Source: Malania oleifera (Eukaryota > Streptophyta > Magnoliopsida > Santalales > Ximeniaceae). From it: a DNA stretch of 64,000 nucleotides. The position numbers were made by a program, and so were the translations under genes. The notes beneath the pieces were generated by a model that was given only the letters and a program-made list of their open reading frames with translations, did no database searches and was not told where the DNA came from. This document shows positions 15,954 through 42,800 of the stretch, piece by piece. Where the stretch lies: the NCBI RefSeq assembly GCF_029873635.1, contig NC_080418.1:13185562-13249561 (forward strand). The letters run 5' to 3'. Position 1 is the stretch's first letter. Each line of letters opens with the position of its first letter.

Positions 15954-17218
15954 CTTGGAGCAGGAAATTAATGGGAGCAGCCGTGTTAGCGGGGATGATT
16001 TAGCATCTGATCCAGATGGATTTAGAAAGACTCGGTGTGGAGCTAGTGGAGGGTGATCACCAGACATTTATTGCCAATTTAGTATTACAACCCACCCTAT
16101 AGGAAAGAATTAAAGCTACTTAGAGGAGTGATGCAAAGTTAGTATAGCTTATAGATCAAGTGCAGAATGGACTTGGGGCAGAGTTCAGTATCTCAGATGA
16201 TGGAGCCTTGAGATTCCGCACTAGGCTGTGCGTACCTGCCAACCTTGAGATTAAGAGGATTATCTTAGAAGAAGCACATCGATCCCTTTATACAGTGCAC
16301 CCGGGAATCACTAAAATGTATAGGGATCTTTGGGAGTCATTTTGGTGGAGCAACATAAAGAAAGAGATAGCTGAGTATGTAGAGCTATGCTTGACATGCC
16401 AGCAGGTGACAGTTGAGCATCAAAGATCGACGAGATCATTCAGCTACTTTACATCCCCGAGTGGAAGTGGGAGCATATATAGATGGATTTTGTCACAGGA
16501 TTACCACCGAAATTGCATGAACAGGATTCCATCTAGGTAGTCGTAGACCGTTTGACAAAGATTGCTCATTTCCTTCCTCTTAGAGTTAACTACTCCATAA
16601 GCAGACTGGCAGAGTTGTATATACAAAAGATAGTTAGACTCCATGGCATGCTAATGTCCATAGTTTTAGGCCAAGACCCACAATTTACATCTCAGTTTTG
16701 AAGGAGTTTGCAAAAGGCCATGGGTTCTCAGTTGATGTTTAGCACAACATTTCATTCTCAGACAGATGGGTAAATGGAGAGGACGATACAAGTACTAGAG
16801 GATATGCTAAAAGCATGTGTGCTGAACTTCGGGGACAGTTGGATACAGTTTATGCCACAGGTCGAATTTGCTTATAATAACAACTATCAGGCTAGCATTG
16901 GTATGAAACCATATGAGGCGTTATATGGCAGGAGGTTCCAATCCTTATTATAGAGGGATAAGATTGGGGAAAGACAGATTTTGGGACCACAGTTGGTACA
17001 TCACACTCATGATAAAATCAAACTTATTAGAGATAGAATCAGGGTAGCAAAGAGTCAGCAGAAGAGTTATGTAGATGCTCGCCGATGAGAGTTAGAGTTT
17101 GATGCAGGAGATCATGTATTCCTGAAAGTGGCACCAATGAAAGGGGTTATGAGATTTGGGAGAAAGGGTAAACTGAGCCCTAGGTATATTGGACCATTCG
17201 AGATTATTCAGAAATTAT

Positions 17219-24883: not shown

Positions 24884-27800
24884 TCATTCCAGACTCAGAT
24901 TACCATACTGCCACGGATTGAACTCCGTTGATCTAACATCATCTTCATTAACAAAATCCGATCCATCAACAGCTGCTCGGTGTTCAATGTATTTACCATT
25001 GAATTGATAGATTTCCAAGTCACCCCAAGGTGTAGTTGTAACCTCATCCGTCAAGTCAAACCATCTTGGTGTAAACTGATGCCCCTTGGCCTCCCGGTTT
25101 CTCTTCTCAGTTCGCTGCCTTTCTTCCAGACTGAACAAGTGAGATAAAGTCCAAATTTAAAAGCAACACCATTTCAAACATAGCTTCTTTTTTAACTGAT
25201 AAGAAACTAAAATGCACATCTATGTTCTATTTATGGGCACCACAAAGAAATGCTTAAGATCATTGGTACAATATAGTGAGTGGGAGCAAGAGAAGTGAGA
25301 CCTGCTCTTTTCAGCACCAGCTTTTGATAAATCACCCTTCTCAAGTGCATATCTATCAGGACGCAAACGAGAATCTGATGCCAACAATTTCTTAGGGGCA
25401 GTGTCAAAGCTGTTTATTTTATGTGCAAAATATGTGTACTGAAATTTGTCATTCTCTGGAGTATCAGCAACATGCCAAGCCTAAGAACAAAAGCACCAGA
25501 ATAGCAGCCAGTAAGTTCAATTACCAGTAGAGACAAAATTAGCCACCAATTATAGGAATTAAAAAGGATGCACACAATTGCAAATAATATATCATGCCTC
25601 TTTTGCCATTTATCCCTGGTGCTAAATACATGCATCTACATGAGTATTATACTCCGACATTTATGGGATATAAAAAATAAGCGCACGACATCTCCGAATC
25701 AAAAATAAGGACGAGTTTGTCCATGCATATGTAAAGCGTGAATGGCAATAAAAGAACAGATAGAAAACTAGAGAAACTTTGAGAAGTTTTGGTCATGTCA
25801 CATCTGCAACAAAGACCAATGAATGCACCAGCCAATATGAATGCGGAAAAATTGTCAGTGGCACCAATCAAAGATCATAGGCAGCAAGGAACTTATCAAA
25901 GATGCAACTAATAATACAGTAGCACCATAGACACAAATACTATGTTGTTTCAACAATGCAGTTCAAAAGTTGCAGTTCAAAATATATCAACATTCCAACA
26001 TGTCAAAGAAATGCAGACCTGATACATTAAGATACATGAACGAAAGAAGTTAAAAAACTATATGTACTAAATGAACAGAAAACAAAAAATGAACCTCAGT
26101 TCCATGTTTGAGGTAATTATATATATAATAAAAACAGAGTTTAAATGAGAGCAACCTCTTTCAGTTCTGTGCCTGGAAGAGGTTCCCCTTCCAAATCGCA
26201 AGGTTGATAACTCATAAACTCATTCCATTTCCCTGTCATCAATATTTTAGGTTCCTCATTAGCATTATATACATATCCATCGACTTCATAGCGACCAGCC
26301 CTGCAATTGCAAACAGGTTCTAGTTAAATAACACCAGCAGCAAGCAAATGGATTGCAGGTAAACATGATACAATTAAAACATTTCAGAAACTTATTTTGG
26401 ATCAATCAGTGAGTGTGACAAAACATACCCCACGTCGATTGTATAGTGGGTATACACTGGATGTGCAAGGTAGAGGGCTGCGCATCTAACAGAGCAACCC
26501 AACCCAACAACTAAACAAACCAGCCTGAGTTGAATTTTGTTAGATGCCACGAAAATACTTGGGAGAAAACAATAGTGTTGGTTCAGATGACAGGTTGACG
26601 GGGTAAAAAATGGTGATCACCCAAACCAACTATACAATAACTTGTTGTACATGGAAGAGGGCTGTGCATCTAACAGAGCAACCCAAACCAACCAGCCCCA
26701 GTGGATTTTGGTTAGTTGCCACGAAAATACTTAAGAGAAAACAATAGCGTCGGCTCAGATGGCATGTTGATGGGGTAAAAATTGATGATTGCCCAAACCA
26801 ACTGTACAATAACAAACAGAAGTCCCACTAGGAAGAATTGACTGCATGAGTTTTCTTCTCCCATTCTGCAAGATCTAAGGCAGTATGCTCATGAAGTTGA
26901 AATGTTGTCAAATCCTTCTCAAAACATCTCCAAGTTATTCTAGAGCTAGCACTCCCCCCTTCAATTATCTAGGGGTGTAGGTGAGTCGAGGCTCACAAGC
27001 TAGTTTGGCTCGACTAACTCTATAACTCAACTTGGATCAATTCTACACAATTTTGAGTTGAGCTTGAACTACTTGAGTAGTTTAACGAGGTTCAAGTTTC
27101 AGAATTCTAACTGCAAGCTTAATCAAGTTAATTTTATATTGTGCAAGTAATCATATAAATTTATATATAGTGAAAGCAAGCCCTCAAGCCAAAAGGCTCC
27201 TCGCTTTGTGAGAGTAGGGGGAAGGTCATCACAATCTATGCAACCTTACCCCTACTTTTATGCAAAGAAGCTATTTCCTTAGACTTGAACCCGGTACAAC
27301 CTGGTCACAAAGTAACAACCTTGTCATTGGTCCATGCTCGCCCTCATTATATCCAACCTCATTGGAACATTATTCAGTCTACATTTCAAATGTCCAAAGT
27401 CCTAGAGCTTAACATGAATGTCTTCATTCCTTGTTTTGTCATTTAAAGTTATGCAATACCACTCACACATCTTACCATTCTCATTTGTGTAGCTTATACA
27501 TTTTGGATATGTTGTTTCTTTAATACCCAACATTCTAATCCATGGCTGGTCTTATAGCTGTTCAATAGAATTTCCTTTTCAATTTTAAAGGTACTCTACC
27601 ATCATGTACCTCTCCAATTTACCTCACATGCTCCACCTCAATGTATTACATCCTTAATTTCTCCCTCAACTTGCATAATAGATCCGATATACTGAAATCT
27701 AGTTCTACTAGGAATTTTTTAACTATCAAGTTTAATATTTTCCTACTATTTGATGTAGGACAAGAAGCAACACCTTGGAAAGATCCTCGTTGGAGAATAA

Positions 27801-30800
27801 TTAAGAAGAATTGGGTAAAGGGATTGGTGTTTAGGTAGTAGTTAATTGTGTTAGTTAATTAGTTATTAGTACAAAATTATGTGTCTTTGGGAGCTTGTAT
27901 GTAATATTTGTGTATTCCAAGGATATGTGTGTAATGTAATGTAGTTTTAGGGTTATATGAAATTTCATGTGTTAGAGACTTTCTTCTAAATAGGGTGTGA
28001 AAGCCATATTGTAAGAGCCCCTAGTAACTCCTCTCCCCTCTCTTCCTTCTTCCTTCTTCCCCTTTCCTTCCTTCTCTCTCATGGTTGCAGATCATTGATG
28101 CTGCCCCTGATCTTTCTCTGGTTTAGACCCTTTGTTCTGTTCCTAATCGCCAGTTGCCCAGCAGTATCTGCCCTCTTCTTATTCTGTTCTTCGACCCCTT
28201 TACTTCTTTTCTCTTCTTGTTCTAGCTCTATCCCAAAATCTCTTCTGTTCTTCGATACCTTCTCTTCTTTTCTCCTCTTCTTCTAATTCTATCCCAAGAA
28301 GAAGCCCTCTTCTTCTTCTGTTCTTTTCTTCAACCCCTCTTCTCTCCACTTCTTCTAGTTCTATCCCAAGAAGATGCCTTCTTCTCCTGTTCTGTTCTTC
28401 GATCCCTTCTCTTCTTTTCTCCTCTTCTTCTAGTTCTATCCCAAGAAGATGCCCTCTTCTTTCTCCTGTTCTGTTCTTTGACCCCTTCTCTTCTTTTCTC
28501 CTCTTCTTCTAGTTCTATCCAATGAGCTCTTCTTCTTCTTAATTCTTTCCATCTCTCTCTATTTCTAGCTTTCTACCCATCCTTCATAATCTCCAGTCCT
28601 AGATTTCACCCCCCCACAAAAAAAAAAGAAAAAAAAACCTGAAAAGCAGTTCTGAACTATTCAAAAAATTCCAGTTGTGCCCCCATTTGTTCGAACACCA
28701 CTTTCCAAACACCCATCCCATTGAAAACAGAACCCCCTGAAACCCTTCCCCTCAAATTTTTATCACCACCCAACCAGCGATGTGTCCCCACATGCCAGCA
28801 GAAAGTTTTCTTGCTGTTGGCCCTCTTAAATCCCTAATTTACTGGGATTCTTTCTGCTACCATCATCACCATTGCAATGCCCATTGCCTGTTCTATCTTT
28901 CCGATTTTCATTTCCGAAATTCACTGCTGGCAACTCACGCGCCAGCGAAGAGCATGAGAAAAATTTCCACCTAACTTGCAATTGCCAGTCCCACGAGAAA
29001 TTGGTCCATCAACGATATTTTGATCTGTGTCAAGATATTTTGATTATGGATCTTATATTTTGCGAGCAAGCGTGATGATTTGTTACAAGAAACGAGAAAT
29101 TGTTGCATCTAGGATCAAAAATCAAGTTTATTGCTGCATTTTGTGAATTTTCTAAGTGAATTTGGTTTCATTTCAGCACAACAATCAAGACTACACATGA
29201 ATTGAATAAGGTTCTTGAGAAATTAGGAGTCAAGTTTAGGGGTGAGCAAACGGTCGATTCAACCAAATTCGGGCAATTAAACGAATTAACCGAAAATTTC
29301 AGTTAATAAATGTTGTTAACCAAACCGACCGAACTGCCAAACCTTGCCTCACCGAACTCGACCAAATTTAACCGAAATTATTTGTAATTAATTGCTAAAA
29401 ACAGTATAAAATTATAATTAATTGCGAAAAAAAAAATGTGTGAACATGTTGGGGAACTGATTTCCTTTTACCACAGGGACCAAAATAACCAGGGAATGCT
29501 CCAAAATCCAGTAACTCTACAACCATGAAAAATCTTTCTTCCAACTCACCTCATTGCTGTTGAAGTAAATCCCATCCTCCTTCACCAGCCAAAAGCATTT
29601 CTTGAGATCGAAACACCGGTGGTCGTCCCGGTGAACCTACAACGCCTCGAACCTCTTCCTCCGGCGATCCCATTTGACGGTGCATGAGAATTGGACAATT
29701 CCCTAGGAGTCGATCCGGAGTCCCCAACTGAACTCTTCCCCCTCCTACAGTGCTCGCCCCCCAAGATCATCCTCTTCCGACGAACACCATATCACCAGCG
29801 AAGTTAAAGAGTTGGTCCTGAACCCATTGGTCACGTGAATCTCGTACTCCGTGCCTTGGAAATACTCTGGCTGCCTCAGCGCCATGAAAACGATGCACAG
29901 CATCAAGCAAAAACCCTAGCCCTCAGCTCCACCTTTTTTCCCCCCAAGTCGAGCCCCATCCCTTTAACATATAATAATTTATATATAAAATTAGTTAATT
30001 AATAAATCGGTTAATCGGTTAACTAAATTAATATGTTTTGTTAATCGAACCGAAACCCGATTCACCGAATTTTGGTAAAGCCCAACTGAACCAACCAAAT
30101 CGGCTTTTTTACCCGAACTGAACCGACCAATTTCAGCCTGTTAAATCGGTTAATTCGGTTTTCTACAAATTATGCTCACCCCTAGTCAAGTTTGTGGGTG
30201 AATTGTGTTGAGGGCTTTTGGTGATATATAGTTGCAATATATATGAAAATAGAATGTAATTTCTGTATTTCTTGAATTCAATATTTTGTACATCCCAATT
30301 TACAATATATAATACAATCAAAGGCTCTAAATATGGACATGATCTCTCTATAGAATCATTCTCAATAATATACAATCTTCTATATTTACCTACTCTCCTA
30401 ATTTACTCAATATACCCAATGATACTTGGGATTTCAACACTCCCCCTCAAGTTGGATCATAGATATTGATCATATCAAACTTGCCAATGAAATCATCAAA
30501 GTTCCGCTATGCTAACCCTTTAGTAAAGATGTCTGCAGTTTGTTCCTTGGTAGGTACACAAGTCATACAGATGGTTCCTTCTTCAACCTTCTCTTTGATA
30601 AAATGTCAGTCCACTTCCACATGCTTAGTCTTGTCATGTTGAACTGGATTGAAAGAGATACTGATGGCTGCTTTGTTGTCACAATAGAGTTTGATAGGGA
30701 ATTTCATCGTAATTTGTAATTCTTCCAAGAGTTTCCGTAACCACAATCCCTCACATATTCCTTGTGCAACTGCCCTGAATTTAGCTTCAGCGTTGCTTCG

Positions 30801-33800
30801 AGCCACTAATTTCTGTTTTTTGCTCCTCCAAGTTACCAAATTTTCCCATACAAAGGTGCAATATCCAGTGGTAGACCTTCTGTCTTTCGCTGATTCTGCC
30901 CAATCCACATCTGTAAAGATCTCTACTTCCTTGCTTTCACATTTCTTGAAGAAAAGTCCTTTGCCCAAAGAAACCCTTGAGGTACCTAAGGATCTTATAC
31001 ACAACATCTAGGTAAGTTTTTTTCGGTGAATGCATGTGTTGGCTTACCACACTTACCACAAATGCAATGTCGGGTTTGACATTCGATAGGTAGATTAGTT
31101 TACCAACCAATCTCTGATACCTTTCTTTTTCAACTGGTATTCCACATTCTTCGACCCTTTTCATAGCTTCAATCGGAGTTTCACTAGGTTTGCAACCAAG
31201 CATGCCAATTTCGGTTAGGAGACCAAGGATAAACTTTCGCTTGATACCTTTTTTTGATCTAGCAATTTCCATTCCCAAGAAGTACCGCATTTGTTCCAAG
31301 TCTTTAACTTCAAACTCAGTAGCTAGGACTTTCTTTCACCTTTCCATCTCCACTGTATCATCCCCTATTAGGATTATATCATCAACATATCTATCAGAAT
31401 TGTTTTCTTACCACTTTCAGACTGTTGGAAGAACATAGTGTGATCTGATTGCCTTTGTCAATATCCCTAAATTTTAATCACTTTTGCAAATCTGTCGAAC
31501 CATGCTTTGGGAGATTGCTTGAGTCCATGCAAGGACTTCTTGAGTTTACATACTCTGTTTTCTTCACCTTTCTTACTAAAACCTGGCGGTATCGTCATGT
31601 AAACTTCTTCTAACTCGCCATTTAGAAATGCATTCTTAATGTCGAGTTGCTGTGGTGGCCACTCTAAGTTAGCTGCCAATGAGGAGAGGACCTGAACTGT
31701 ATTCAATTTTGACACTAGTGCAAATGTCTCCATGTAGTCAATGACATAAGTCTGTGTAAATCCTTTTGCAACAAGTCTGACTTTATATCGTTTAACTGTC
31801 TCATCAGCTTTATATTTCACTGTGAAGACCCATTTACAACCAACTGGCTTCTTCCCTCTCGGCAAATTCATAACATCCCAAGTTTCATTTTTCTCAAGGG
31901 CCCACATTTCCTCCATGACAGCCTCCCTCCATTCAGGAATTTCCAGGGCTTCCTGAATATTCTTTGGAATTTTCATCCTGTCAAGGTTAGAGGTAAAAGC
32001 ACGATATCCTGTAGACAGACTTTTATAAGGCGTCTTTTGACCAGGGATAAAGAGTACATGACCTAGTTTGTTTTTTGACTGCAATGGGTAAATTGATGTC
32101 ATCAGGTGCAGACTCATCAGAAGAAAGCTCATGGCCATTGATTACCTGACCGGGACTGGGCGTGGACTCATGGTTGTTCGAAGTTATCACCGGTTCCAAC
32201 TCTTTTGGTGCCTTAGGCATGAGATTCTCCCTGTTCTTTGTTTTCGGCTTTCTTGACTAAACAAGTGTTTCCTTATTAGTTTGTTTTTCTGCATCTCCCC
32301 TTGAGTTTAAGTGATCATTTGCATATGACAGGCTAGGAAATGATGCAATTGGAGACTCAGTAGATGGGTCAGGGAATGATGTAATGGGAAGACTCAGTAG
32401 ATGGCACGGATTCAGTAGTATAGAAATCAAAGAACCGATCTTCACTCCACGTCTCTCCCTGAAGAGAGGGCTTTTGGAAAGAAGGAGTAGTTTCAAAGAA
32501 CATGACATCAAGGCTAACAAACATTCTTTTGGAGACAGGGTCATAATATTTGTAGCCTTTCTAAGTAGGAGAGTAACCAATAAAGACGCATTTAATGGCA
32601 CGAGGTTCCAATTTATCCCGATTGTGAGCATGAAGATGAACAAATGCAGTACAACCAAAGATTTTCAGAGCAAGATTGGAGCGGAGTCGAGAGTTGGGGA
32701 AATATTCCTGGAATTTCTGGAGAGGAGTGGCAAAAGAAAGGACCCGACTCGGCATTCGACTAATGAGATATGTAGTTGTTAATGGCATCACCCCAAAAAT
32801 AGTTTTTCATATTTGTAGTGAACATCAATGCCCGAGCTACTTCAAGTATATGTCTATTTTTGTGTTCAGCAACCCCATTTTGTTGAGGGGTATCCACACA
32901 CAAACTTTGATGAACAATTCCATTTTCTTGAAGATAATGTCCCAAGATAGCATTGAAATATTCCGTACCATTATCAGTACGCAAAATTTGGATGTGAGTT
33001 TGGAATTGTGTTTGAATCATGGAGTGGAAACTGACGAAAATAGAACGGACTTCATATTTATCTTTCAACAAGTAAACCCAAAAAATACAAGTATGATCAT
33101 CAATAAAAGTAACAAACCATCTCGTGTGAGTGTGATTAAGAGAGCGTGAGGGCCTCCCATAAATCATTGTGAATCATAGTAAAGGGTCGGGATGGTTTGT
33201 ATGTGAATTTTGGAAAGGAATTATGCTAGTGTTGTACAAGTTCACAAATCTCACACTGAAATTCATAAGACGTTTTATTTGAAAAAATGGAAGGAAATAA
33301 ATGTCTTAGATACTGAAAATTTGGATGATTCATCCTAAAATGCCATAACAAAATTTCACTATCACTAGAAATAGATGCAGGATCACAAATAGTAGTTTTA
33401 ACCTCCTCAAAGTAGTAGAGTCCCTCACACTCTTTAGCACTACCAATTGTCTTCCCCGATGATAGGTCCTAAAAAACACAATGAGAGGGAAGAAATTTAG
33501 CATAACAATTGGAATTTTTATTCAGCTGGATAATGCATAGTAAGTTGCAGAATAAATTAGGAACATGAAGAATGGACTCTAGTGTGATGGAGTCAGAGAG
33601 TCGGATATTTCCTTTGCTTGCAACAGACGAGAGTGATCCATCTGCAATTTTAACTTTCAAATTTCCATGACAGGGTGAATATGATGAAAAAAGATTATAG
33701 GCATCAGTCATGTGGTCAGAAGCACCAGAATCAATTATCTAAGGAGTTTTGGATCTAGAGGTTTAAGGCTTGCAAAAAATTACCTCTTTGGGCTAAAGAA

Positions 33801-36800
33801 CCTGAAGAAAGGATCGATGGTGTTCAGTTGAGTGAAGGGTCTGAGTCTCGATGGAAGAAAGTTGGGGTTTTGAAAAAAGATGCTCCTTTGAAAGATGAGC
33901 TTTTCACTGAGACTCCCATAAAAAAACTATAATTTTCTAAGGACCCAAAATTCGAGTCCTTCACCAAATCAAATGCCCCATTACTGCCCGTAGTTGCAGA
34001 ATCACCATCGCGAGCACCGTCGATAACCTTATCAGTGCGATGATCAACAGCCATACGTCTTTGCGCATCGAAGTTACTGAGGTGAACCAGGGACTCTTCA
34101 TCAAGAGGGGTATCGAAGTCGTCGCAAGTCGTGTCTTCGTCCTTCAAATTATCTGACACCGAAACCATCAGGATTCTAGTGGACTCCATAGGAATCCCGC
34201 CAAAGCCCGACGAATCGACAATGATATTATCCTTTGATTTGCCATCGGAATGGGAGGCGGCGAAGATGCTCTTCTTGAGGACTTGAATACTCGCAAGATT
34301 GGAGCAAAGAACAGAAGGCCTCCTCCATGGATTCCTCTTCGTCGCTGCATCTAAGGTTGTCGATCCCCGACGGTGAGAGCCCAAGAAGTTCGGTGGGGTC
34401 TTCCCATCTTGAGAAACCCACGATGGAGGTGGCTTCAGAATTGCCGTCGAGAGTTTCAGAGGAGCTTGACCCTTTGCTGTTCACGGCTCCGTCGACCATT
34501 GCTAACTAAGGTTTAGAAACCCTAGCTCTAATACCATGAAAATAGAATGTAATTTCTATATTCCTTGAATTCAATATTTTGTACATCCCAAATTACAATA
34601 TATAATACAATCGAAGGTTCTAAATATGGAAACAATCTCCCTATAGAATCACTCTCAATAATATACAATCTTCTATATTTACCTACTCTCCTAATTTACT
34701 CAATATACCCAATGATACTCAGGATTTCAACAATATATAAAAATAAAAATAAAAATCCAGCACCATGGCAATAGTTTAGTGGAAAAATGAATGTATCACT
34801 TGTATGCAACTTTATTTGGGACCTCATCCAGAGCCTTATGAGATATCTTGGGTTAATATCTCTGCTTTACATGTTTGTGAAAGAAGTTTGGTTCCTATCC
34901 AAATGGGTGAATATCTTGCTAATGTTTGCTATGATATCATCATACCCATGAATATTGGTCATGTACTCCTAGGTTGGATGATTTGGGTGTGACTCAAGGA
35001 CTTGAGAACAAATATGCCTTCCACTATAATGGTGAGAAGATCATTTTGAAGCCCGCTTTACCAATCAACCAAGAATTCACCAGAGTTGCTCAACTTGAAA
35101 GACACTGCAAGGAAGGAAAATGCATGTGTTTGAAGGCATCCAAAGTCTTTCAAACATTCCTATTGTAGAGTTTGTCATCCTTGATGAGTTCGTTAATGCA
35201 AATTCTCAATTCAAGTCTATGGTGCTGTCAATGGAGCGAGGTTTCTTGTACCACTCAAGTGTTGGCTTTCGAAGGGTCCAAGTTTGCTTCTTACTTCTAA
35301 TCCTCCAACATTTCAAAATTCTAGGTTGAGTTTTGTTTTTTGGTTTGTTTGATTTTTTTTAATAGGGGGGAGATTTGAAGTAAGACAAGACGCAAGACCT
35401 TGAGAAAATCCTTGTTCGTAATGGGTCAAGGGATAGTTGATATTAGTTGTGTGTTTGGTTTAATTAGCATAGGATTATGTGTATTTTTGGGGGCTTGTTT
35501 GTAATATTTGTGAATTATGGGGGCATGTCTGTAATGTAATGTAGTTTTTGTGGAATATGTGTAATTTCATGTGTTAAGAGGCTTTCTCATAAATAGTATG
35601 TGAAAGCCATGTTATAGGAGGCCGTTGAATTTGAATTGAAAAAGTGAAAGTGTGTTTTCCCCCTTGTATGTCCTCTCCTCTCTTCCCCTTCCTTTTTCCC
35701 CTTTCCTCCCTTCTATCTCTCATGGTTGGAGATCATTGGTGCTGCCCCTGCATCACCATCCCTCCAAAAAAATGACCAAAATTACATTTAAAGTATTTTG
35801 TCTTACTTCAAACGTTAACATTCTAAAGCTTCTCCCCAAGATTCCAGCTTAGATTATACTTCTCTAGTTTCAACAATCAGTACAATATCATTTGCAAACA
35901 AGCTGCACAGAATCTCATTTTGGATGTAGGTCGAGCAAGCCCATCCATAACAAAAATAAAAAGATAAAGACTCCAGGTAAGACACACTTTATACACCTAT
36001 TGTGGTTTGTAAATTTTCAACCTCTCCTCGTAAGAGTCTTAAGACTAGTGATTATCTTGTTGTACGTATCTAAATGACATTTTATATACCTACCAACTCC
36101 TTTTTTTTTTTCTAGAACACGCAATATAGCTTCCCTAAGTACCACATTATAAGCTTTCTCTAGATCAATAAAAACCATGAGCAAGTCCTTGTTCTTTTCC
36201 CTAAAATTTTCCATTTATCTTCTTATATATATATAGCCTCTATGACTGGTCTCCTGAGCATAAAACCAAACAATTATTTATTTATTTATTTTAAATCCTC
36301 ATTTCTAGCTTTAGTCTTTATTCACTTACCTTTTCCCGAAGTTTCATTTTATAACTCATAAATATAACTCCACAATATTATTACAATTTTTAATATCTCC
36401 TTTATGTTCATGTATTTAGAGTGCTTTTCTTCCATTCACCTGACATTCTTTTAATCCTCATAATTTTGTTCAAAAAATTAGTTAACCATATTAATCTATT
36501 ATCAAGTTAGCATTTCCAAACTTCAATAAAGAAGTCATCAAATGCTATAATTTATATTATTTTAATGTTCTTTAATGCAACCTTAAACTTCATTTTCATT
36601 AAATATTTTATTAAAATAAGTTTGACATCTTTCTTTCATATCTTCTTCCTTAATGAAAACACTATCGTCCTGATTTTTAATACATTTCTCCAGCTCTAAC
36701 AATTTTGAATGTTGTGCCCGTATCTTTCATACTTAGTATGATATTGAAACTGTCATATACTCTAAGTTCATCTTCACTCACAATGTTTTCTCATCTTTTC

Positions 36801-39800
36801 TTGCGTCATTTTACCTTTCAAAGTTCTCTACATTTCAGCACTTCTGCCTAGGGGTGTACAAAAATTACCGAAAAACCAAAACCGGACCGAAATCACAAGC
36901 AGTTTGGTTTTTCTGTATTCGGTTTCAGTGTCAGTTTTTGAAGTTATAAATTTTCGGTTTCGGTTTTGGTTTCAAAATATAACCAAACAGTAAAACTGAA
37001 AAAAAAAACCGTTTTAAATTAATATATATAATATAATTATTAATACACACACACACACACACATATATGGGCTTGGGAGTCGTAAGGGACTAGGGTTTCA
37101 GTATACTCACACTGCTCTGAGTGCTCCCTGCAACTCTGCCTGACTGCCTCTCTCTCAGACTCTCAGTCTCTCTCCATCAGTCTGTCTCACGACTCTCAGT
37201 CTCTCTCTCTCTGTCTCACACTTGAAGTCGACGCCAGGCAGCGCAGCTGTGCTGCACCACTGTCGTCGACGGCTGGCGGCCTCTGCAGCTCTGCCTCCGT
37301 CCCCTGTCATCTCAACTCTCGAGCAGCTGAGTACCTAAGGTACGGTTTGCCTCTGCACTCGCAGATCCCCTTGCTGATTTTAAATTTTCTCTTTTATTTT
37401 GTGGATTTTTTTCCATTGATGCAGCCATTCATCATAACAGGAATTAGTAAAGTTTTGAAATGCCTAATTCGTTGCCAATTTACTGGAATATTTATGCTTC
37501 TTTTTATGATTGCCTCCGGTGTTCAGGTTTGAATCTGTTCCATCAATCAGTCTATTATCTCTTAACAGTCTATATTGCACCTTTTTGAGGCACCTGTTAG
37601 ATTGCCCATGTTGGGGCACCGTGAGTTGCGGTTTGGTTGCTAGGTCGACAAACCAAACTGTTGGATTGGTTCATTGGGGCAAATCTAAGCAATTAATTCA
37701 ACCTACGAGATTGTAATATGACCCGCCTGCATAAATTTAAGCACCTTTATTGTGTCTTGTACAGATGAAGCAGGCTATCAGAGGCTCAGAGCGCCACATT
37801 GTGAAAAGTAATTGTTAAATATTTAGAAAATTGGTTAAAAACCGAAAAAATCATAACTGAACTGCCGTTGTTCAGTTCTCTGAGGGATAACACATTCGGT
37901 TCGATTTTTGGTTTCGGTTCAGGAAGTTCAAAAACCACACAGTTCGGTTCGGTTTTCGGTTTGGCCCATAACCGAACCGAACCAAACCGATTGCACCCCT
38001 ACTTCTGCCATGCTTTAACCACACTCTTCATGTTTTAATCGTTTTCAAGACATCCTCATCTCACAACCAACTCCATTTAATGGCCATGCTTTTTCCTCAA
38101 ACCCCCCCAAACCTCTTTTGCTATGTCCCTAATAGAATAAGCCATCCTACACCAAAGGTGTTCCTATATAAGTTATTTTTTATTGTAGAGTTGCCTTCAT
38201 TTATCATTTTTTCTTTAAATTTTATTATGTTTTCTCCGTATAGGTTTCATGCTTTAGTTCTCTTATATCTATTTTATCCTTCTCTCTTCCATTTTCTAAT
38301 GCATATATTTAGTACTGAAATTCTATGTTTTGTAGTTAAACTTGCACTTGGAAAGACTTTATAGTTCTTACATGATAAATTATCTCGCCTCCTAGCTAAG
38401 AAAAATGTTACTTGATTTATATTTTTTTGTCACTCTTGGGTAGCTTTTTGTTCATAGTTTGAATCGGAATCGGAATCGGAATCGGAATTGGAATTCACTA
38501 GAATCAAAAACATAATGTAGAATTCCTCTCTCATGTTTGGTTCGACACAAAATTGAAATCAAAATTGTATTAGAATATTCGGTACATATAGACAAAGGAA
38601 TCTAAAATGAATACAGTTTATCAATTATAACATTATGATATAAAAATTTATTTAACTAATTTATATGAAATAATAATATTATAAATGATTTTTTACAATA
38701 AAATCATTTTGATAATCATATACTTGATTATCCTTTGCATACTATATTTTATCATATTTTTTTATTAGTATTTTGTTTAACTATATTATTAATATTACAT
38801 TTTATCTTATATTTTATAATTATCATATTTTAATATGTAATCTAACATATATAAATAAAAATTCACACATTATAATATTATAACAAAATTTATTTTTTAG
38901 CATAAAATAATAATATACTAAGCAATAGTCGTAGCATTATATTTTATTACACAATAGTATTATACTCTTTTGTATATTTTATCATTATTATTTTACTATT
39001 ATATATTAGTATTAATGATATTAATAATTAATATTTCATCTTATTTTAAGATTATATACAATAATATAATAAAAAATAATCATACTACAATTATTTCATA
39101 GTACTTCATAATTTAATACTATTCTATTATTTTTTAGTGTTATAACTTTATTATATATATTAAATAATATAAATATTAATAATAATGATTATAATATTTT
39201 ATATTAAATTTTTAATATATATATATTTTTAAGGATATTGCAATAATAATATTATTTTTTAGATTTATGCAATATATATTATTCTATTATATATAATATT
39301 AATATTATTTTTAAATTTATGTAATATATATTATATTATATTTTAATAAATACGTGCGCATGTATATTTATTATAAAATACTATTATATTCTTTTGAATA
39401 CTATATCATTGATAAAAATAAATATTTTATTTTATTTATTTTTAAGATCATAAATAATAATATAATAAATCAATAATCACACTGCAATTACATCACAATA
39501 TTTTAATATTTAACACTAATTTAATAAATTTTATATGTTATAATATTGTTAAATATAATAATAAATATTAATAATGATGGTTTAATATTTCTATTAAAAT
39601 ATGTTATTACATATTTATATTTAATAAAAACATTTATATATTTACATAGTATAAAATATTACATTACATAAAACATCAGATTTGTAATATGTAGGGGCGC
39701 GTGTATGTATGCATATATATATGCGAATTTTAATGAGTTAAATAATAAATATTGTATTTTCAGGAATCAAAATTTGATTCCGGAGTAAGAGACATTAATC

Positions 39801-42800
39801 AAAAAGTAAGCAAAAGGGGAATCTCATTCCTGAATGGAATGGAAATAGGAATAGGAATGAGATTACTACAAAACAAATATTAGGAATGGAAACCAACCAT
39901 TCCAATTCTGATTTGGATGGCTAAAGTTGATTCCCAATTACCAAATACCACCTTGAAGGATATTAAGTGTTATCTCTTTCTTTCTCAAATCACACATTCA
40001 TTGTTATAAGGCCATATGACATAGCAACCCTTCAAAATTCAAATTATATCACCGGACTCATTTTTACCTCCATATGCACATCTGCTATGTATCCTTGCAT
40101 AACCTTTCATGTATGACCATTCAAATCCACACCTATGAGAATTTTCTTACTGCCTAATATCACTCTTAAAATATTATCCACAACTTCCCAAAATTGCCTA
40201 TAAGGGTTTTTGCTAAGCCTGCCTTGAAGGGCATAAGCATTGGTGTCCTTTATTATCTCTTATCCTAAAACCATATTAATTTTTATAATTCTAGTCCCCA
40301 GTCTTTTAACATCTACAGCACTACTTTTTAGGTCTATGTCCACACCTTATGTTCTTTTCCTCCTAGAGGAGACAAGCTTAAGTTCAATTTTTTAGTTTCT
40401 CCAGATCATCCCCCCCTCCCCCTGGTTTTCACCCACTTAGTTTCTCAAAGGAAAATTATATTAATTTTTCTTTTACCATTGTGTCATTCTACTCATCACA
40501 AGTCTCGTCTGAGTCTCAATTTCTAGCCCTACTCTGTCAAAGTATCCACATGAACATGTCCCTCCCTATCTGCCTCTATGTCTGTGTGTGCCACTTTTCA
40601 TGATCATCGACTCTCATTAACAGTCTTTGACTTCAATACAAGCTTTTGATTAATTATTTACTTCTTATTTACTTTGATCAGATCAATGACTCCACAGCCA
40701 ACAGAAATATGTAACACCTAGAGAGCAACACCATGCACATGCTGATAATTAGAAGTAACTCAAGTTATCACTTACTTCTTTTAAGGGAGAGTACATGAAG
40801 TTACAAACGATATACAAGCTGCCCTAGGCCAGCCACAGTGTTTGGAGACTCGGCCAATGTATTACATGGGATTGGACCTAACCATGCCTTACATGGGATT
40901 GGTCCCTCCCCCAAAGGAAGAACATCAGAGACTAAATGGAGGAAATTGTCACAAGCCACAGCCAACATCAGTAGTGCACTTTGGAGATCTTGTATATGAA
41001 TAAGGTCTAGGAAAATCACATATAATCAAAACTAGCTTTTCTAAGGGAGGGCCTAGGGTGTTACACAAACCGAGAAATTAATCATTTTGAAACTTTTACA
41101 TAAGTTCTTAAGAAAAATGAGGAAAAATAATAAGTATGCTGACACTAGGGATGTGGTAGGCATAAGAAGCAACCTTACACAGATTTATGAGGAAATAGGA
41201 ACAAGCATCAATGGCAAGAAGAAACAATCAAAAATACCAAAAAAAAAAAAAGTGTTCTCAAGAGAATCAAAGTCATAAATGTATCTCAGATTTCTTTACA
41301 TAACAGCGTATCTCAAAAGTTCTCAAATAACAATACCATCAAATTCACCCAAGTCTATATACAGAAACACAGATATTGTAGTAAGGATCCAAAAAGATTT
41401 CGTTAAAAGAACTATTGACATACCCAAACCAGCCACATGGTTGAAAGTATAGCACGACTTTGTCTCCAGTTGTCAAATTTATCATGATCATCTCCCCTGG
41501 AGAATCAACCCAAGTCCGTCCAAAAATCAGATTGTTTACCACTGTGGGAGGAGGCACCAAATCTATGACTACACCATCTCTTTTAAGAGTCACCCGCGTT
41601 CTGCATACAATAAAAACCATATGATGATACATTCTGTTTATGAGCTTTACAAATTAAATCTTGATAATGAAAATGAGAAGATTAAAATATATGATAACTA
41701 AAAAGAACCTGAAAACAGCCACAAAGACTTGAAAACCAACCACAAAAATTAATCAAACATATAATAAAATGTAACTGACACAATTCTTTATAATAAAAAT
41801 TCAAGGAAGTTCATCTAATCTTCTGATGTATTATTTGATGATCAAAATTAAATGCAGCAGCATCTAAATATCCCAAGCATCTTGGACTCCCTGCCAATTA
41901 GATGAAGCATAAACTAAAAGAAACATAATATTAGTGACAAACAGACACACGTCTCACCTTCCAACAGGGTAGACATCAACGGAGTTTCCTAAAAATTTGG
42001 TTTTTAACTTTGATGTCACATCATATGTAAAATGCTCATTTTCAGCATGCCCAGCACTCATTGGGGGATGATGACTCACCTGAAATGAAAATGAGAAATA
42101 TTAAAACTAAGCATGATGCTTGGAACTTGGAAGTCATAATCTTTAGAGGCTCACCTGCTCTGAAATAAATGTAATCCCACCATGATTAGCCATTTCATAA
42201 GTCTCACCAAGAATTGGATTAAAAGGCTTCCAAGTTCGCTGGTAAGCATAATACACAGATATGGCCCAAGATGCTGCAATTGATTTTTTAAAGAAAAGGT
42301 CCATTACATCAGATAATGCTTGTACATTAATTACAAAAAACAAGAAGGCAAGATCATACTTACAAGCATACACCAACCGCATGTATGGATCCTCACATTC
42401 ATCTGCTCGATCTAAAAGGTGGGAGTACTCCATTAACTGCCAGGGCCATTGCACATTTTAGACCATGGCATAGGCTTCGCACAAGATATGAAAAGCAAAC
42501 CCATGAACAATATGCAAGTAAAATCAAACAAACCTCTGCCATTTTCTGAAGCATTGTCATCGGCTCAAAAATAAGTACTGGAAGTGTCACCATTGATGTA
42601 ACATCTGAACCTATATACTTGTGCATCATCTTCCAATAACTATCTCGTTCCTATAAGACCAGAAGAACAAGACAACTGTGAAAATTACAATTCCACATCT
42701 GTAAACATGACAGAGAGAGTGAGACAAAAGAGTAACCTGTGAACTGTGAAGAAATAAAAGAACAATTTCATTGTCAATGACAATGTAACATGGTTTCAAA

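Follow-up and report, generated by a model that had tools for sequence, protein, structure and literature searches.

The window (the whole stretch of DNA that was analysed, 64 kb in length) harbors a hAT element at 29237-30184, whose 12-bp inverted ends and 8-bp target-site duplication are both exact, and whose arms enclose a segment related to SPH genes of the self-incompatibility S1 family (Table 1). Pieces of an oxysterol-binding-protein gene were found on the minus strand at ~42.1-42.5, 41.3-41.7, 26.15-26.28, 25.2-25.5 and 24.9-25.2 kb, and the element is placed within the ~15 kb stretch 26284-41348, with its cargo in the sense of this gene. The window copy thus sits inside the oxysterol-binding-protein gene, an intron being its most likely place. 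An exon joined across the empty site, to the left of the element, was considered and rejected, as a six-frame Pfam search found nothing there. A copia-type LTR element starts ~50 bp to the right of the hAT element. Elsewhere in the window, the open frame at 16148-16537 contains an integrase zinc-binding domain (PF17921) and is probably a retroelement remnant.

Table 1. Coordinates of the features in the window and in related elements
Feature	Position	Strand	Remark
8-bp target-site duplication, left	29229..29236		GTCAAGTT
12-bp terminal inverted repeat	29237..29248	+	TAGGGGTGAGCA
Left arm of hAT element	29237..29419		common to seven elements without SPH and to the transposase-bearing relative
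Captured segment	29427..29909	-	donor SPH codon 12 to ~90 bp beyond stop; 93% identity to C3 donor locus
Reading frame with Self-incomp_S1 domain	29517..29903	-	ATG not the donor's start
Premature TAG, codon 89	29637..29639	-	donor CGG
Premature TAG, codon 67	29703..29705	-	donor TGG
Premature TAG, codon 53	29745..29747	-	donor CAG
Right arm of hAT element	29911..30184		common to elements without SPH
12-bp terminal inverted repeat	30173..30184	-	exact complement of left TIR TAGGGGTGAGCA
8-bp target-site duplication, right	30185..30192		GTCAAGTT
Copia-type LTR element	30244-34732	-	LTRs 94% identity, duplication ATATA, broken frames
Oxysterol-binding-protein exon piece	26153..26284	-	found by a motif match
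Open frame with upstream oxysterol-binding-protein exon	41348..41653	-	profile 142-202
Elements with other segment	L047:890-1911, L048:754-1841, L049		SPH 3' flank kept

Ends of the element and nature of its cargo

The earlier note on this DNA had described matching 12-bp inverted ends and a perfect 8-bp duplication, and both proved exact. Among inverted pairs spaced 60-2500 bp in the 64-kb window, an exact 12-bp pair accompanied by an exact 8-bp duplication was unique, AT-repeat pairs aside, and none was obtained in 30 mononucleotide shuffles. The TIR motif alone, with up to two mismatches, occurred six times in the window versus 2.5 expected, so that the motif by itself proves little. The sequence TAGGGGTGAGCA, present on both ends, is a short TIR of the YARGG type, as in the hAT superfamily, and the 8-bp duplication was found with no or one mismatch in 17 of the 21 cargo elements described below. 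A segment of ~30 bp at 29360, palindromic in character, is absent from the window copy and present in most others.

The translated minus strand of 29517-29903, with stops read as X, matched PF05938 (Self-incomp_S1) across the profile (positions 2-104 of 104, E = 1.8e-20, 73.9 bits versus a curated cut-off of 24), which bore out the S1 identity proposed for the centre. In a six-frame scan of 26.0-31.0 kb, this domain was recovered at E = 3.1e-18 and no Pfam domain besides S1 was found at E up to 0.01; the element thereby showed host gene DNA between its arms and no transposase. No further S1 sequence was found in the window, where the next-best tblastn match reached E 0.56, and a phmmer comparison of the cargo with solved structures returned no match at E up to 1. 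The frame comprises 128 codons and a final stop, and exactly three of these codons (53, 67 and 89) are TAG, in line with the about three in-frame stops that had been announced. The ATG at 29903, at which the 129-codon S1 frame put forward earlier begins, is not the gene start, as it corresponds to GCG (Ala14) at codon 14 of the likely donor presented below. All four domain cysteines of this donor (positions 53, 87, 110 and 116) are retained, as had been claimed, and the window copy shows no reading-frame indel against it. The description of the gene as full-length had to be abandoned, since the donor promoter, the start codon and the first 11 codons are missing; donor codon 12 is the first one present in the cargo, and a complete open frame with its own start is absent (11 codons lacking, three TAG). 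The captured gene is thus 5'-truncated and without its own promoter.

Donor locus, sister elements and transposase-bearing relative

An open SPH gene of 141 codons, outside any element, was found at C3:43199175-43199613, displaying 93% identity to the window cargo over 29427-29909. Its coding frame is intronless and uninterrupted, and no TIR-like site (up to two mismatches) was found in the 9 kb around it (L052). A likely intact donor gene, which the earlier note had proposed to seek, was thus recovered as an open frame; the same note had held that finding this centre outside any element would speak against a capture, and it was so found only in the way that a donor would lead one to expect. 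A genome search with PF05938 (34/34 candidates scored) gave 16 matches above the cut-off, comprising seven of the 21 cargo copies and nine stop-free frames at other loci, of which six lie at C3:43.199-43.281 Mb. The C3 gene is the likely donor of the cargo. At ten sites, however, at least 70% of the copies depart from it, so that it may have diverged after the capture, or may instead be closely related to the true donor.

Seven elements (L024-L030) carry sequences corresponding to about 29237-29419 and 29911-30184, without SPH. The cargo is consequently bracketed twice, by the donor homology (29427-29909) and by the sister arms, which end near 29419 and resume at 29911, and the earlier statement that the centre is not transposon sequence held for 29427-29909. 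Among these sisters, L024, L025 and L027-L030 possess one common interior of about 650-700 bp, for which 46 genome matches, many of them partial, were obtained (40 of 482 candidates scored), and the L026 interior showed no match to the other six. Their 8-bp duplication was exact in L026, had one mismatch in L028 and two or three in L024, L025 and L029, and was not found in L027 and L030. Other elements (L047-L049, the last without paired ends) kept the SPH 3' flank and carry a different segment, for which the nearest counterpart beyond this group is C10:88988803-88989296 (93% identity); no TIR-like site was found in 2.9 kb at that place, and the segment perhaps corresponds to a second capture in the same lineage. 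Taken together, L024-L030 and L047-L049 indicate that the arms of this family carry several interiors. For the right arm (29911-30184), 1579 candidates were found in the genome, 40 of which were scored.

A 4.94-kb relative (L084, C1:43.71 Mb) has TIRs that differ at one base, the duplication GTCCATAG in exact form, and arms with 84% identity over 221 and 73% over 211 positions to those of the window element. It holds the hAT transposase domains PF05699 and PF14372, in a frame consisting of several open pieces (introns or damage). PF05699 has at least 150 matches in the genome (150 of 1711 candidates scored). The hAT membership of the window element was upheld by the arms, the near-identical TIRs and the transposase domains of this relative, and the proposal of an SPH gene captured by a hAT element was borne out by the relative together with the likely donor locus.

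Copies of the element, their decay and their insertion blocks

A genome search with 29470-29991 (40/40 candidates scored) returned 43 matches, among which 21 elements with SPH cargo were counted, the window's included (L001-L003, L005-L021, and L050, an interrupted element made up of rows L022 and L023); the remaining matches were L004, which is the SPH locus without ends, and 20 rows of short matches. The 8-bp duplication was exact in 12 of the 21, presented one mismatch in five and two in one, and could not be paired in three (L006, L019 and L021). A left flank is common to L014 and L021 at 99.5%, and a right flank to L002 and L019 at 96.5%. These two pairs were interpreted as segmental duplicates, so that the independent sites number 19 at most, and the expectation that other copies of the element bear the same cargo was confirmed to this extent. 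In L012 and L016, a common unrelated segment (93% identity over 328 bp between the two) takes the place of the SPH 3' end and of some of the left interior. An insert of ~2 kb (L050:1965-3941), bounded by TGTA...TACA and a 5-bp duplication CCATA, lies inside the cargo of L050 and looks like an LTR. Whether it represents a visiting element not yet excised was considered: an exact 8-bp match ACACCATA is also possible there, but its ends then match at only 4/12 positions.

Relative to the donor, every one of the 21 copies is damaged by a premature stop, indel or truncation, and at least one reading-frame indel was found in each of the 20 copies other than the window's, that of L006 being only a truncation gap. 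Against a donor-like reference, 236 distinct changes were counted in the cargo over all 21 copies (139 nonsynonymous, 76 synonymous and 21 stop), and 142/75/18 are expected when these changes are themselves placed at random along the sequence. The copies thus appear to decay as if neutral, with no detectable selection in this comparison. In single-copy tests, two of 21 showed a synonymous excess with P just under 0.05 (L005, 0.048; L050, 0.046), which weighs against neutrality, yet about one such result is expected by chance. Naive dN/dS values against the donor fall below 1 (0.048/0.138 for L001) by a method that ignores the C-to-T bias. Distinct C-to-T and G-to-A changes numbered 47 in CG, 41 in CHG and 47 in CHH contexts, where 50, 44 and 120 sites, respectively, are available. 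The decay is largely C-to-T/G-to-A, leaning to CG and CHG, as expected of methylated DNA.

Besides point changes, 13 of the 21 copies (L007-L011, L013-L015, L017, L018, L020, L021 and L050) differ from the window copy by 9-11 short inserted blocks, mostly of 6-8, 12 or 15 bp, at 29454-29962 in window terms, a count that leaves out the 30-bp palindrome at 29360 and the poly-A run. Two of these sites are found in L003 and L005, two plus their own in L012 and L016, and a different one in L002 and L019, and the blocks are partly nested along the family tree. Since the donor lacks them in the cargo, they are gains there; the arm block at 29962 may be a gain or a loss. Twelve simple events, selected by length (6-8 bp), were tested; the compound blocks at position 29579, the run-of-C block at 29762, the 9-bp arm insertion of L019 and the L012/L016 events did not enter the test. 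In 10 of the 12, the inserted unit is a copy of the adjacent sequence but for one or two differences, and a near-duplicate of neighbouring sequence is the form expected of hAT excision. P ranged from 0.0066 to 0.66 in the single-copy version of this footprint test and from 0.016 to 0.66 in the majority-string version, for which Fisher's combination gave 8e-6 if the events are independent. The arm events at 29962 and 30138, with P 0.23 and 0.66, did not support the footprint reading. Of the 12 events, ten lie in the cargo (483 bp) versus the arms (457 bp), with P 0.039, and no visiting hAT still in place was found, the L050 insert having been examined. Altogether, the blocks resemble hAT excision footprints, with moderate statistical support. 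It is possible, if not quite probable, that the captured gene served as a repeated landing site for other hAT elements, whose visits and excisions at about ten sites would have left 6-8-bp scars and remodelled the cargo of one source copy, which later spread to 13 of the 21 copies.

Origin of the cargo and its significance

These observations are very probably explained by a non-autonomous hAT element (a Pack-hAT) that captured a partial SPH gene, was spread by a transposase acting in trans, and bears the gene as a neutrally decaying passenger. A precursor with arms like 29237-29419 and 29911-30184 would have acquired part of an SPH gene as a DNA copy, the captured span running from codon 12 to ~90 bp beyond the stop; the intact gene most closely related to this source is that at C3:43.199 Mb. 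In donor and element alike, GCG precedes the poly-A run at which the left junction is placed, and this one shared run suggests that the capture probably proceeded via template switching while a break within the element was being repaired. A hAT transposase, of which L084 or a relative may have been the source, would then have moved the element to up to 19 sites, moves that are shown by the distinct 8-bp duplications. Without the donor promoter and start codon, the cargo would be a decaying passenger; a gene fragment would thus be duplicated by transposition, as in any Pack-TYPE element, and no protein product is expected.

Three other readings were rejected. That the cargo derives from an SPH mRNA by retroposition, instead of genomic DNA, is very unlikely: the donor frame is intronless, so introns cannot discriminate, but the homology extends ~90 bp past the stop, and the terminal run, which the donor locus shares, reads as T on the sense strand and hence is not an added poly-A tail. 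The donor frame is also short and uninterrupted, and the domain is complete in the window copy, which would suit a working mobile SPH gene of which this copy is merely a dead member. Such a gene is highly improbable, given that the donor start codon is missing from the captured segment, that not one of the 21 copies has kept the donor frame undamaged, and that a synonymous excess is absent over all copies. Right-arm elements are abundant, as their 1579 candidates (40 scored) indicate, and two separate miniature elements could in principle flank an ordinary SPH pseudogene by chance; the duplication, however, is matched across the outermost ends, and elements ordered as arm, cargo and arm are found at up to 19 sites whose duplications differ, so that a coincidence is extremely unlikely.

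A further proposal, compatible with the capture and passenger decay preferred here, is that the cargo family acts in trans, with transcripts reading through copies, or 24-nt RNAs made from silenced copies, repressing the donor gene. Each of 240/459 donor 21-mers and 198/456 donor 24-mers has an exact counterpart in one or more of the 21 copies, of which two are partial; the window copy contains 92 and 68, respectively, and lies in sense within the oxysterol-binding-protein gene, and the C-to-T/G-to-A changes favour CG and CHG contexts. However, shared k-mers are expected of any recent duplicate and constitute a sequence precondition at most, and the donor frame remains open, so that this activity is considered unlikely.

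Gene capture by hAT elements has already been published (PMC8903248, PMC3260210 and PMC2528002, in the portions available). According to the accessible text of PMC8903248, the Pack-hAT elements of maize and rice likewise combine hAT ends, 8-bp duplications, captured coding DNA and multi-copy clusters, and an internal capture between conserved ends was proposed for them. The element described here differs from them in plant and TIRs, and in that the donor, both junctions and the amplification series are laid out; an SPH cargo is not mentioned in that accessible text. Maize Ds2 and Ds-l4, as far as presented in the available part of PMC3260210, are also hAT elements with sometimes gene-derived filler, Ds-l4 having a modal length of ~1 kb, but gene fragments are rare in them (two Ds2 and nine Ds-l4), unlike the 21 copies of one cargo found here. 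In the excerpted text of PMC2528002, grapevine Hatvine-6 resembles the present family in its common TIRs and variable, often gene-derived interior, and differs in that its members share transposase coding sequence, none having been found in the window element. Animal hAT Pack-TIRs also capture genic DNA, with junction microhomology and gap-filling proposed, but are mostly single-copy (four multicopy, 1.4%), in contrast to the multi-copy elements here (PMC8277862, from the sections available). Seven self-incompatibility-related genes were listed among transposed Arabidopsis genes with flanking repeats in the accessible portion of PMC2869330, which is a process different from the hAT capture described here. 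Within the SPH family (PF05938), the cargo shares the domain and the four cysteines, and differs in being, in the window copy, a pseudogene that is 5'-truncated and enclosed in an element. No report of an SPH cargo in a hAT element was found among the matches listed in the open-licence literature. The SPH cargo and its copy history are what is new here, as hAT capture as such was already known.

The family offers a complete case, in which a likely donor, the two junctions, sister elements lacking SPH, a relative with transposase domains and a graded series of 21 copies are all placed. As the 21 cargo elements outnumber the nine open SPH genes found with Pfam, and seven copies remain above the cut-off, SPH annotation may count pseudogenes. 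The footprint-like series provides a means of studying the frequency with which cut-and-paste elements visit each other, and, if the footprint reading is true, footprints would have shaped the cargo as much as point mutations, and would mark its family tree.
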